The translations under genes and the position numbers were made by a program. 64,000 nucleotides of DNA from an uncultured bacterium (GTDB lineage: Bacteria > Cyanobacteriota > Vampirovibrionia > Gastranaerophilales > Gastranaerophilaceae). The notes below the pieces were generated by a model. It had not been told where the DNA came from. It ran no database searches and saw only the letters and a program-made list of their open reading frames with translations. The DNA is taken from NCBI GenBank assembly GCA_949286705.1, contig CASEDF010000007.1:1-64000 (forward strand), given 5' to 3'. Positions 13,412 through 35,468 of the stretch are shown in pieces. The stretch's first letter is position 1. Each line of letters begins with the position of its first letter.

Positions 13412-14397
13412 TTATTTAGGCAAATTTTTAAAATAATCTTTTGTATTCATTGCTTTATATGCACATGTGAAACCGTTGTATTCATTATCTGTTTCGTAAT
13501 TACAATAAAGATCTGCATTGTTGTATTTTGGTGCCTCAGGGTGCCCCAGAGGGTAAACAATGTCATTTTTGCCGATTATAAATGCAAAAGTGTCTATCCC
13601 CATTCTGTTAGGTTTGTTGAAAATACCGTTTAAGTCTATAGATATTATTGGAGATTTGCTTTCGCTGCCTGTTTCGCATAGAATTGTCATTCCGTTGTTT
13701 AATTGGAATGAGCCGTCGTCAAGTAAACGACCCGCAAATGTTGTTGTCCCGAGCAAAGTTTTATATGCTGTCAGCAGTTCATCATTGGATACTATTGCCA
13801 TGTTTTTATTCGTACTGTCTTTTGTATACATGTTTTTAAATGCCAGAGAAAAATTGTAAACAAATGTTTTTTCTTTTGCAAAAGAAATGTCGTTTCCTGT
13901 CCAGGTTTTGCCGTAAACCCAGATATCTTGTGAATGTAAATAGCTTATGGCGTTTGTTGTAAGCGTATATGCCTGTTTTAATTTTGTTTCGTATTGTTTT
14001 GCCTGAAAATTGTTTATGAGTGTCGGAATTGTCATGGCCGCTACAATACCGATGATGCCGAGTGTGATTAGCACCTCAGCGAGTGTAAACGCGGCACGAC
14101 GAAGGCTGTCTGACGTAGCATCGGCTTTCTTTTTAAAGCCGTTAAGACGATATGACGTTAGGACGTTAAGTTCTTTACTGTGAGCTTTGCTTGCGTCTTT
14201 GTCACCCTGAACTCGTTTCAGGGACTCATCAACTTTTCTGTCGGCTTGGTAAAGCCGACCTGCATTTTTAATTTGTTGACGTGTTTCCGGCACTTCGTGA
14301 GGATATATAAAACTAAAATCCTTAAAACCTAAACACCGAGCTAACCTCGGGGGGGGGCGACTATCTGAACCGCTTTTGTAGTAATCTTTTTCAACAT
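13412..14397 (-). CDS. Type IV prepilin-like protein with long repeat-filled leader; start codon out of frame at a C9 tract
   Basis: The prepilin core is read from about 14091 downward: AAFTLAEVLITLGIIGIVAA, Glu5 present and Ala (not Gly) before the cleavage site, then a ~225-residue globular domain with several Cys. The best start is ATG 14397, with AGGAG seven bases upstream and a good promoter. That ATG is not in the prepilin frame: after 18 codons, just past a run of nine C, it meets TAG at 14343-14341. With C7 or C10 the ATG frame would join the prepilin frame and give a leader of ~102 residues. The related gene at 35468 has C7 and is in frame. The prepilin frame itself is open from 14458 but has no good start. 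I read it as a phase-OFF gene; a sequencing error in the tract is the alternative. Confidence 0.75.
14139..14170 (-). repeat. Four tandem 8-bp units in the prepilin leader
   Basis: Read on the plus strand: CCGTTAAG, ACGATATG, ACGTTAGG, ACGTTAAG. The array lies about 45 bases before the FTLAEV codons. Eight is not a multiple of three, so gain or loss of a unit would shift the reading frame. A similar 8-bp family occurs in the 28184 gene. Confidence 0.6.
14198..14259. repeat. Two palindromic repeats inside the prepilin leader
   Basis: CCCTGAA-CTCGT-TTCAGGG at 14205-14223 and GTCGGCTT-GGTA-AAGCCGAC at 14240-14259 are perfect hairpins in the coding region. Bases 14198-14218 also match 28652-28672 in the second prepilin leader exactly over 21 bases (opposite strand). 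Confidence 0.7.
14349..14357 (-). repeat. Homopolymeric C9 tract in the prepilin 5' coding region
   Basis: Nine G on the plus strand (C on the coding strand), 40 to 48 bases into the gene counting from ATG 14397. Such tracts slip during replication. C9 puts the ATG out of frame with the prepilin; C7 or C10 would restore it. Confidence 0.85.
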
Positions 14398-28163: not shown

Positions 28164-28183
28164 TGCCAAAAAGGAGAACGCAA

Positions 28184-29473
28184 ATGAAGTTGAAAAAGAG
28201 TTTGACTAACGGGGGGGCGACTCCTCTAAGTGAGCAGGACAATGGTTTTTGGGGTATTGTTTGGGAAAAGTTACTAAGATACTATGATACTAAGGCACTA
28301 AGAAGTAACATTCATCATAGTAAGGCGGAGCAATATAGAAATAGCAGGAGTTTTGGTGACTTGTTATCCTCGCCCCTTGCGGGAGAGGGAAGAATTTCAA
28401 CACGAGGAACGAGTGTTAGAAATTCGGGTGAGGGGTGGTGCAAGAGGCACGACACCATATTAGGTTTTTGCGGAACTTTGCGGGTCATCCCGGGGTGGTT
28501 AAGAAACGTAGGTTGGCATTACAAGCCCTACAACAAAATTGACAAAGGAGCAAATACAAATTATAATTCTAATATGATGAATTATAATTCAGTGATCCTG
28601 CGGAAAAACCGGACATTTTTCACAAAATCGAAGATTTTGGAAAAAGTAGTCAAACGAGTTCAGGGTGACAAAAAAACTCACGCCATTCAATCAAAAAAAT
28701 TCTTAGTGCCTTACTGCCTTAGTAACTTAGTATCTTTTAAGAAGGCAGCATTTACTCTGGCGGAGGTTCTGATAACCCTCGGAATAATCGGGATTGTTGC
28801 AGCATTGACAATACCTAATCTTGTTGTTAAATATCAGCGAAAAGTCATGCAGACAAGGTTTCAGAAAGCATATTCCATTTTGACGGAAGTTAATACCCGT
28901 ATGATTGCTGAAAATATTAATCAGTACAGGGATTTTGTTCGTACAGAAAAGGATGAAAACGGCAAATATTCAGAAGAAGCCCGTAATCGCCAGCTTGACA
29001 CTCTTGCGTCATTTTTAAACGGTGCAAAAGTATGTAACGGTTCTTATTATAGCTGTTCAGGAATTGAAGATGCATATGATTTTCCTGATAAGATTCATAA
29101 AACTCTTGACGGGCAGAATAACGCACATATCGCTGCCGACGCGTATATGAAAAAGACAGTAATTACTAATGACGGTATGGATATATGGGCTGGTGGTCTG
29201 CAGTTTGAAATTGACAAATACTATGTAGATACCAACGGTTATAATAACGGTCCTAACAAGCTTGGCTATGACCTTTTTAGATTTGTGATTAATAGTAATG
29301 GAACTGTTACTCCGGAAAAAGATAGTGGAGCTCGCAATAAATGCTCATTTATATCGCCTGCAGAAAGTGCAGCTTACCTCGGTTTTGGCTGTGCGTATTA
29401 TGCCTGGAAAAATGTGAATCCTGATGCTTTGGATGATCCGTCACAGGATTATTGGAATGATTTTTTGAAATAG
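28184..29473 (+). CDS. Type IV prepilin-like protein with a ~189-residue repeat-filled leader and a G7 tract
   Basis: ATG 28184 has AAGGAG seven bases upstream. A G7 tract begins at codon 10 and is in frame. The prepilin motif KKAAFTLAEVLITLGIIGIV starts only near residue 187, so the leader is about 189 residues where known type IV leaders have 5-30. The leader holds inverted 8-bp repeat arrays, a large palindrome (SSPLAGEGR...SGEGW) and a 21-base segment shared with the 14397 gene. The mature part (~240 residues) has Glu5, a hydrophobic helix and a globular domain with several Cys (KVCNGSYYSC, GFGCAYYAW). An internal start such as ATG 28574 cannot be excluded, though it lacks a good ribosome site. 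Confidence 0.75.
   Translation: MKLKKSLTNGGATPLSEQDNGFWGIVWEKLLRYYDTKALRSNIHHSKAEQYRNSRSFGDLLSSPLAGEGRISTRGTSVRNSGEGWCKRHDTILGFCGTLRVIPGWLRNVGWHYKPYNKIDKGANTNYNSNMMNYNSVILRKNRTFFTKSKILEKVVKRVQGDKKTHAIQSKKFLVPYCLSNLVSFKKAAFTLAEVLITLGIIGIVAALTIPNLVVKYQRKVMQTRFQKAYSILTEVNTRMIAENINQYRDFVRTEKDENGKYSEEARNRQLDTLASFLNGAKVCNGSYYSCSGIEDAYDFPDKIHKTLDGQNNAHIAADAYMKKTVITNDGMDIWAGGLQFEIDKYYVDTNGYNNGPNKLGYDLFRFVINSNGTVTPEKDSGARNKCSFISPAESAAYLGFGCAYYAWKNVNPDALDDPSQDYWNDFLK
28211..28217 (+). repeat. G7 tract near the prepilin start
   Basis: Seven G, 27 bases into the gene, in the 12-mer GGGGGGGCGACT. The same 12-mer occurs on the opposite coding strand in the 14397 and 35468 prepilin genes. Change by one or two bases would shift the frame. 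Confidence 0.75.
28271..28302 (+). repeat. 8-bp tandem array, inverted relative to the array at 28702
   Basis: TTACTAAG, ATACTATG, ATACTAAG, GCACTAAG. These units are reverse complements of those at 28702-28733, so the two arrays form a long imperfect inverted repeat about 430 bases apart, flanking most of the leader. Confidence 0.65.
28379..28440. repeat. Palindromic repeat element inside the prepilin leader
   Basis: The core is GAATTTC-AACAC-(9 bases)-GTGTT-A-GAAATTC (28392-28425), with GC-rich flanks (CGCCCC to the left, GGGTGAGGGG to the right) that can extend the stem. It encodes the in-frame SPLAGEG-type peptide that occurs in dispersed bacterial repeats. ACGAGGAACG from its loop also occurs at 35364-35373. 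Confidence 0.65.
28652..28672 (+). repeat. 21-base segment shared with the 14397 prepilin leader
   Basis: Exact match to the reverse complement of 14198-14218. In both genes it is read in the same frame as KRVQGDK. Here only half of the palindrome is present. Confidence 0.7.
28702..28741 (+). repeat. Five tandem 8-bp units just before the prepilin motif
   Basis: CTTAGTGC, CTTACTGC, CTTAGTAA, CTTAGTAT, CTTTTAAG. The array ends two bases before the KAAFTLAEV codons. Confidence 0.7.
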
Positions 29474-34069: not shown

Positions 34070-34257
34070 GTCATTACGGAGAGAATGTGGAGCCTTCGAC
34101 GTGCTAATCTCATTCAACTCCAACGACTTTAGGATTTGGTAGTCATTGTTTCTGTTTCATAACCTTGCGATTGTCACGCTCGCTCCGATCCCACGCATTG
34201 ACCTGACAAGGTACACAGATATTGTCTGGTGTCGTGGCTTTGGCACCTCGCAATGAC
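34070..34257. repeat. MITE-like dispersed repeat (about 188 bp) with inverted termini
   Basis: The left end GTCATTACGGAG and right end CTCGCAATGAC are imperfect inverted repeats. The interior is richer in C and G than the flanks and carries no ORF of note. The GTCATTRCGAG terminus matches a repeat type seen in many bacterial genomes, and GTCATTACGAGG also occurs inside the adjacent prepilin leader at 35358. No transposase is present. A second short hairpin (ATCCT...AGGAT) lies at 34268-34290. Confidence 0.5.
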
Positions 34258-34301
34258 ATTTTTAATGAGATCCTTCGGCTATACCTCAGGATGACGTAAA
34301 A

Positions 34302-35468
34302 TTAATCACCCAGACATACCGCCGGAGGATCGCTATAGTTACGGCTGCCGTTGCCCTTGCCAGTACTGGTAGGGTTGAAGTAGCGGTAGTCCGCGTTGTA
34401 ACTATTCCCCTCGCCGGACCAAATGTCGAAATTTGTCCCTGTGAATCCAAGCTCTGCTGCTTTATCATAGTCTAATGTTAAAGGGCTGACATTATCATAT
34501 GCACCTATGTCTGATGTGTTGTATACATAATTTGCAATGTCTGCAACCTGAGCCATTGTAGGCATTTTAGTAACACCGCCGCAAGCTTTAACAGCACCTG
34601 CCCAATAGTCACTTCCATAATTACATCCTTCAATTCCTAGATCGCCTTTTAATTGTTCACATTCAGCTTTAGTGAGAGGATCAGGCTTAAACGGAGCGGA
34701 GAAACAAGTACTGCCGGATCTGAAAGCACAGGATTTTAAAAACGAATTAATTCCTCTTACATCTTTGTTAAAAGAGTTCGGCGACTTGAATCCGTTAGTA
34801 TCATAAACGAGAGAAACACAGCTGGTACCGGTGAATTGATTAGAAAAGGGTTGTTCTCTGCAATTGAGATTGTAGGCAATAATTCCGGTTGTGCCGTTTG
34901 CAAATTGAACTCCGACAGCGTCAGAATTCCAATCATCCTGTCCTAAAGCCGCAGCTGTCGTAATTGTAGTCATATCATAAGAACCTGATTCATTATCTCC
35001 GGCAGAAATATCCAGAACATCCCATGTTATTTTATCTTCAAAACAAGACATAATATCATTATTAGAGCAGATTTTATTAATCTTAAAGTGTTTAGATAAT
35101 TCACCGACAAATTCTTCGGTAGAAGAGTAACCTGCAAGAACCTGCTGAGTGTTCATGGTTTTGAGAGCTTCTTCAAATTTTCTTTCAAATACCTGAGCGG
35201 AAGTACTCCAGGTTTTTTCCTGATAATTTGCGACAAGAGTCGGAATGGTCATAGCAGCCACAATGCCTATGATTGCAAGTGTTATCAAGACTTCCGCAAG
35301 GGTAAAGGCGGCTTTTTTACCGTGAGTAAAGTGAGTGAGGTGAGTATAGTGAGGTTTGTCATTACGAGGAACGTGTACAGCACTTCCTACTAAGGTAAAA
35401 CCATTACATAGCGGTAATCTCGGGGGGGCGACTATTTGAACCGCTTTTTGTACAACCTTTTCCAACAT
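34302..35468 (-). CDS. Type IV prepilin-like protein with C7 tract and 54-residue leader (in frame)
   Basis: ATG 35468 has AAGGAG eight bases upstream and is in frame. The first ~19 codons (MLEKVVQKAVQIVAPPR) closely match the start of the 14397 gene, the main difference being C7 here against C9 there. After a leader of 54 residues comes KKAAFTLAEVLITLAIIGIV, cleaved before Phe55, with Glu5. The ~330-residue mature protein is Cys-rich (KICSNNDIMSCFEDK; SCAFRSGSTCF; VKACGGVTKMP) and ends with an aromatic, glycine-rich segment. It is probably a secreted pilin or pseudopilin. The leader includes HVPRND, encoded by a dispersed repeat, and a 9-bp tandem array. Confidence 0.85.
   Translation of the reverse strand: MLEKVVQKAVQIVAPPRLPLCNGFTLVGSAVHVPRNDKPHYTHLTHFTHGKKAAFTLAEVLITLAIIGIVAAMTIPTLVANYQEKTWSTSAQVFERKFEEALKTMNTQQVLAGYSSTEEFVGELSKHFKINKICSNNDIMSCFEDKITWDVLDISAGDNESGSYDMTTITTAAALGQDDWNSDAVGVQFANGTTGIIAYNLNCREQPFSNQFTGTSCVSLVYDTNGFKSPNSFNKDVRGINSFLKSCAFRSGSTCFSAPFKPDPLTKAECEQLKGDLGIEGCNYGSDYWAGAVKACGGVTKMPTMAQVADIANYVYNTSDIGAYDNVSPLTLDYDKAAELGFTGTNFDIWSGEGNSYNADYRYFNPTSTGKGNGSRNYSDPPAVCLGD
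35322..35354 (-). repeat. 9-bp tandem repeat in the prepilin leader
   Basis: Plus strand GTGAGTAAA, GTGAGTGAG, GTGAGTATA, GTGAGG. It encodes the tripeptide repeat HYT-HLT-HFT-HG right before the prepilin motif; copy-number change here would keep the frame. Confidence 0.7.
35422..35428 (-). repeat. C7 tract in the prepilin 5' coding region
   Basis: Seven C on the coding strand at the same codon position as the C9 tract of the 14397 gene; here the frame is open. Confidence 0.8.

Follow-up and report, generated by a model that had tools for sequence, protein, structure and literature searches.

The prepilin genes of this genome very probably constitute a phase-variable (slipped-strand) repertoire of genome-wide extent, in which the leader acts as an exchange zone for pilin bodies; we put the probability of this reading at about 0.8. 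The window, that is, the whole 64,000-nt stretch of DNA analysed here, belongs to a draft MAG of the Gastranaerophilaceae (1.85 Mb, 96% complete, 68 FTLAEV sites). Each locus has a fixed platform (Shine-Dalgarno, start, 6-13 codons, then a tract of 7-11 G or C), and the prepilin behind it has a reading frame that opens at the tract. In the proposed mechanism, replication slippage in the tract would shift the start into or out of the pilin frame. The ON state would yield leader plus pilin, the OFF state just a short peptide, some 12-34 codons long. In the ON state, the leader would be translated, remain cytoplasmic and be removed by prepilin peptidase. Because it would be cut off after translation, its residues could be almost free and it could collect repeats; because it is built of in-frame modules common to many loci, it could serve as a crossover zone for pilin bodies. 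Slippage inside the population, expression, leader cleavage and the exchange route are steps that we infer.

The window holds three FTLAEV motifs, at 14,073-14,089 (minus strand), 28,751-28,767 (plus) and 35,290-35,306 (minus), against a chance expectation of 0.01. The first prepilin gene (28,184-29,473, plus strand) displays the full arrangement: a Shine-Dalgarno sequence AAGGAG at 28,171-28,176, in the geometry common to 54 of the 68 prepilin genes, an ATG at 28,184-28,186 and a G7 tract at 28,211-28,217. The tract lies 27 nt after the start, a spacing identical at 32 of 54 loci, and places start and pilin in one frame, i.e. ON. The repeat-mosaic leader behind it (28,218-28,750) is open in the pilin frame as far as the A|F junction, with about 177 repeat-rich codons between G7 and A|FTLAEVLITLGIIGIVAALTIP. 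It contains an octamer-like module with units of about 8 nt (TAAGATAC TATGATAC TAAGGCAC; 28,266-28,304, plus strand) that is present in up to 27 other leaders and pairs with an inverted copy (LVPYCLSNLVSF) at 28,700-28,738, and a long palindromic module (SPLAGEGR...NSGEG; 28,368-28,436) of which a 98.6% copy exists outside leaders, in L035. In total, 85% of this leader behind the tract recurs in the leaders of further prepilin genes in this genome. The mature type IV pilin-like protein (28,751-29,473; 240 aa plus stop) matches PF07963 barely above the cut-off.

The second gene (34,302-35,468, minus strand) is likewise ON, with a 54-codon leader and a C7 tract (35,422-35,428) 40 nt after the ATG at 35,468. 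Directly behind it, at 34,161-34,258, are two short stretches resembling a leader module of L031. The third gene (13,412-14,397, minus strand) has its C9 tract (14,349-14,357) at the same distance from the ATG at 14,397 and is OFF as assembled, 1 nt short of frame, while its mature part (13,415-14,089) is intact. A GTAG-type REP palindrome (GCAGGTCGGCTTTACCAAGCCGAC) lies in the leader of this gene, at 14,240-14,263 (minus strand). The sequence-only reading had given leader lengths of about 54, 102 and 189 residues. The outer two figures hold, as long leaders of 189 codons (ORF 28,184-29,473) and 54 codons (minus-strand ORF from 35,468) are real; the figure of 102 does not, since the 308 nt from the Shine-Dalgarno-preceded ATG at 14,397 to FTLAEV are out of frame owing to the C9 tract, and a search of the pilin frame of this gene for a strong Shine-Dalgarno start found none. 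What had been overlooked is that each leader opens with a run of G or C, which follows the start codon after 18-40 nt. It is this tract that organises the region: leader translation is conditional, and one of the three examples in the window is out of frame.

PF07963 was matched by two of the three window prepilin proteins, the third having been searched minus its leader, and a prepilin peptidase domain (PF01478) scores above cut-off in the same genome. Across 44 pilins, the N-terminus has 16 invariant columns, and the type III signal motif, in which G or A precedes [F]TLAE and a hydrophobic helix, is invariant in all 44. A fold search of the PDB with the AlphaFold model, in which the leader is mostly of low confidence and the underlying alignment shallow, returned no significant match. 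Besides, an Rfam search of the window yielded no family at threshold; whalefall-1, a sub-threshold hit on one palindromic module of loci L003 and L004, is absent from the window leader and was set aside.

The same platform recurs throughout the genome. A Shine-Dalgarno sequence, a start, 18-40 nt and then seven to eleven G or C precede 54 of the 68 FTLAEV prepilin genes, and at 41 of the G-type loci the spacing from start to tract (18-30 nt) is in every case divisible by three. Reverse-complementing the G-type motif (GGGGGGGGGCGACT) gives the C-type one (AGTCGCCCCCCCCC). From tract to FTLAEV, the pilin frame is open in 49 of the 54 loci and damaged in five. At 54 of 68 genes the tract is placed such that a change in its length would alter the frame, as in a slipped-strand contingency locus, with 10 ON, 39 OFF and 5 damaged as assembled. 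The excess of OFF over ON should be read with care: the ON share, 10 of 49, is not convincingly lower than one third (p = 0.07). The commonest tract is G9, found at 29 of the 41 open G loci. A chance origin of the repeats was ruled out by the frame-specific stop counts, the sharing between leaders (both given below) and the motif expectation, and loss of mismatch repair was discarded as a cause, MutS1 being present in this genome and in every relative tested. In most loci of this genome, a complement of the Shine-Dalgarno sequence, either CTCCT or TTAACCTCC, stands a few nucleotides behind the G-type tract; it is longer than in the control (5.5 versus 3.5 nt) and may hide the start.

The OFF genes do not look like debris. 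They encode undamaged mature pilins of 209-341 aa, and mismatch rates of 0.216, 0.148 and 0.399 at the three codon positions indicate purifying selection. With bodies that are both intact and under purifying selection, these genes must be read at times.

The alternative that fares best, albeit an unlikely one, is recoding: -1 ribosomal slippage on G GGG GGG, or a G inserted by RNA polymerase, would keep G9 genes at a steady low level of expression. The heptamer G GGG GGG fits the slippery pattern known for ribosomal slippage, G9 is the commonest tract, and nearly always the same +1 nt is needed in this genome and in relatives G006, G010 and G011. Evidence against it comes in part from the relatives, which where named are Candidatus Gastranaerophilales MAGs. 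The Shine-Dalgarno-ATG-tract pattern, which counts in favour of the phase-variable reading, occurs in 31 of 59 of them; almost all of these belong to a single family, the reversed control gave values close to zero, and FTLAEV counts reach 109 per genome. G9 is the modal tract in G006 and G11 in G018, and G024 has G11-G13 ahead of FTMAEI pilins. With G10 being ON in both genomes, the G9 genes here need +1 and the G11 genes of G018 need -1; this difference in sign speaks against one fixed programmed frameshift. Furthermore, G7, G8, G10, G11 and G12 are found at sister and syntenic loci, and C9 genes would require another slip. Tract length is unequal at 9 of the 19 loci syntenic with the close relative G011. 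The locus of the first window gene (helicase, pilin, gpmI) carries G7, ON, here and G9, OFF, in G010 and G001, whose leaders are different but open; in G011, G009 and G012 the pilin gene is absent from this locus. In G018, G010 and G014, many short-read contigs stop within a few hundred nucleotides of a tract, so MAGs probably understate the number of such genes.

Still less probable is that the leaders are untranslated, with pilins starting near FTLAEV behind a stretch that is regulatory or decaying. Most tract loci of G025, a member of another genus (loci L163-L192), do have a separate pilin start: at 25 of 29 sampled loci a short upstream ORF carries the tract, and the pilin has its own Shine-Dalgarno-ATG. 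Loci L003 and L004 of the present genome look similar, with G10, some 274 nt ahead of FTLAEV, in what may be an upstream ORF, a long, conserved and highly folded 5' region and ordinary 6-residue pilin leaders (MTKRFG), and the first window gene has a TTG with a Shine-Dalgarno-like site 130 codons ahead of the F. Against this stands that stops are absent from the pilin frame specifically: over the 54 stretches from tract to FTLAEV (4,704 codons), there are 32 stops in the pilin frame, all confined to the five damaged loci, versus 332 and 453 in the other two frames. If the leaders diverged neutrally by 6%, some 19 of 49 would be broken, and none of 200 simulated runs broke fewer than 10; the observed figure is 5 damaged among 54. 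A start just ahead of FTLAEV, which would have refuted the sequence-only reading by its own criterion, was sought directly; none of the 39 OFF genes has a strong Shine-Dalgarno start in the pilin frame, and the leader is free of stops. Finally, it is highly improbable that the OFF state marks pseudogenes, or that it arises from homopolymer errors in a draft MAG, as five damaged loci might suggest, given that the geometry repeats in many independent genomes, the OFF bodies are intact and under purifying selection, and the tracts are far above chance.

Over all leaders of the genome, 90% of the DNA is common to another leader, and the modules occur at only 24 places outside leaders in the 276 kb covered, i.e. 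the surroundings of prepilin genes plus the window. Shared modules lie in the identical frame in 535 of 562 alignments, a pattern that stems from inheritance, recombination or stop filtering. Mismatch rates by codon position are nearly even in leaders (0.124/0.130/0.153), whereas those of mature pilins are not (0.123/0.057/0.473), which points to a leader whose frame is kept while its residues are almost free. Between relatives, leader content has been rebuilt with the frame still open. These observations bear out what was proposed from the sequence alone, namely that the leaders are dispersed repeats kept in the pilin frame, an idea whose core is a preserved frame with nearly free residues. 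Six leaders of this genome (L020, L028, L029, L030, L032 and L047) contain a second FTLAE motif (KKAAFTLAEGATHVDMSDNIRRVA|FTLAEV), as if cassettes had been nested at the cleavage site.

The leader module TGTAGGTCGGCTTTACCAAGCCGACAG bears the GTAG tag of REPs, and this palindrome is present in 17 copies in 14 leaders. Copies also flank the only Y1_Tnp (RAYT-like) transposase gene of the genome (L256 272-775; G000:C2), and one copy lies within the reading frame of that gene. At least one leader module is a GTAG-type REP with a RAYT-like transposase, its mobility being putative. Independent insertion is not the visible pattern, as the modules share their frame and crossovers between loci fall in the leader. 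The suggested likeness to Rickettsia palindromic elements extends to units inside ORFs. REP and RPE units are both known from within ORFs, and RPEs have a CGTC tag at one end (PMC3733652); on the present palindrome that tag was sought and GTAG found instead.

Comparison with G011 suggests what the leaders might be used for. In 14 of 19 syntenic pairs, the pilin past residue 25 is less than 50% identical, while the 5' flank is 80-99% identical; identity usually extends through the tract and partway into the leader. In 10 of the 14 replaced pairs, 3' flank identity (78-98%) resumes near the stop codon, mostly within 40 nt past it. Two genes are chimeric: L029 of the present genome combines the platform of G011 L262 with the body and 3' flank of G011 L286, and G011 L273 combines the platform of L044-2058 of the present genome with the body of its neighbour L044-3459. 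The joins of both fall in or beside the leader, which therefore looks like a cassette-exchange junction. The chimeras could be misassemblies at repeats, but the two-sided replacements are hard to explain in that way. At one tract locus, L254 1518 (G000:C8), the leader passes directly into TIPTLV, without the FTLAEV helix start, which looks like a faulty exchange.

Several points weigh against reading these loci as phase-variable. Free switching does not predict the dominance of G9, which mutational equilibrium could give; MutS1 is intact; leaders of 189 residues are far above the usual length, with processing by the peptidase being putative; tract lengths are those of an assembly consensus; and the PDB fold search lent no support. 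A broader picture, to which we give slightly less than even odds, would be a combinatorial surface system in one gut-dwelling family related to cyanobacteria: dozens of fixed, G-tract-gated platforms would exchange pilin cassettes via a translated, disposable, repeat-built leader serving as recombination linker, and a sister genus would have rewired the tract into a phase-variable upstream-ORF attenuator. The G025 loci behind the latter idea have mostly G11 tracts and, at 23 of 29, a conserved hairpin CCGTG...CACGG about 64-92 nt past the tract, with a weak stem (about -8 kcal/mol). As assembled, the upstream ORF stops at +8 in most cases; one more G would move the stop to between +58 and +97, mostly to +61 or +91. 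We regard these loci as candidates for a phase-variable attenuator in dozens of copies.

Slippery-tract pilus switching is known for small numbers of loci; in the present genome, it would involve most of one protein family. If true, this would explain why genomes of about 2 Mb hold tens of prepilin genes, turn an animal-gut lineage into an example of surface diversification on a large scale and provide a natural setting in which to test the evolution of a translated-then-discarded peptide. On the practical side, conventional gene-calling programs will set the wrong start for most tract-bearing prepilin genes or break them up. In a literature search of incomplete coverage, Gastranaerophilales were not found together with phase variation, and papers on their pili do not report it.

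Several known systems come close. Variable-length leaders with G or A as their last residue in front of the hydrophobic helix are shared with long-leader type IV prepilins (PMC10191384), whereas here 54-189 residues are made of dispersed repeats and are tract-gated. As with GTAG REPs and their RAYTs and with Rickettsia palindromic elements (PMC3733652), short GTAG-ended palindromes flank a transposase gene and occur inside ORFs, yet here they make up one module among several, cluster in prepilin leaders and are of putative mobility. S. gallolyticus Pil1 is controlled by a phase-variable leader-peptide attenuator with GCAGA repeats (PMC3894217). Its geometry resembles that of G025, not the design of the window genes: in G025, too, a slippery upstream ORF would terminate either well short of the hairpin that precedes the pilin gene or beside it, but with G11 in place of GCAGA repeats, in dozens of copies, for a type IV pilin and with putative termination. 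In Bifidobacterium breve, replication slippage at an intragenic G tract switches sortase-pilus genes on and off (PMC9187656). Here as well, G-tract slippage is proposed as a pilus-gene switch in a gut commensal; however, B. breve has two sortase pilus clusters, while the present phylum is unrelated, the genes are dozens of type IV prepilins, and the tract sits within the first codons with a long repeat leader behind it. Lastly, like the contingency loci of Neisseria and Campylobacter (PMC5084427, PMC8355987), this genome has many G/C-tract genes with surface functions and tract lengths of about 8-12, but where those gene sets are mixed, almost the whole set here is one prepilin family, with body exchange taking place, as we propose, behind the switch.
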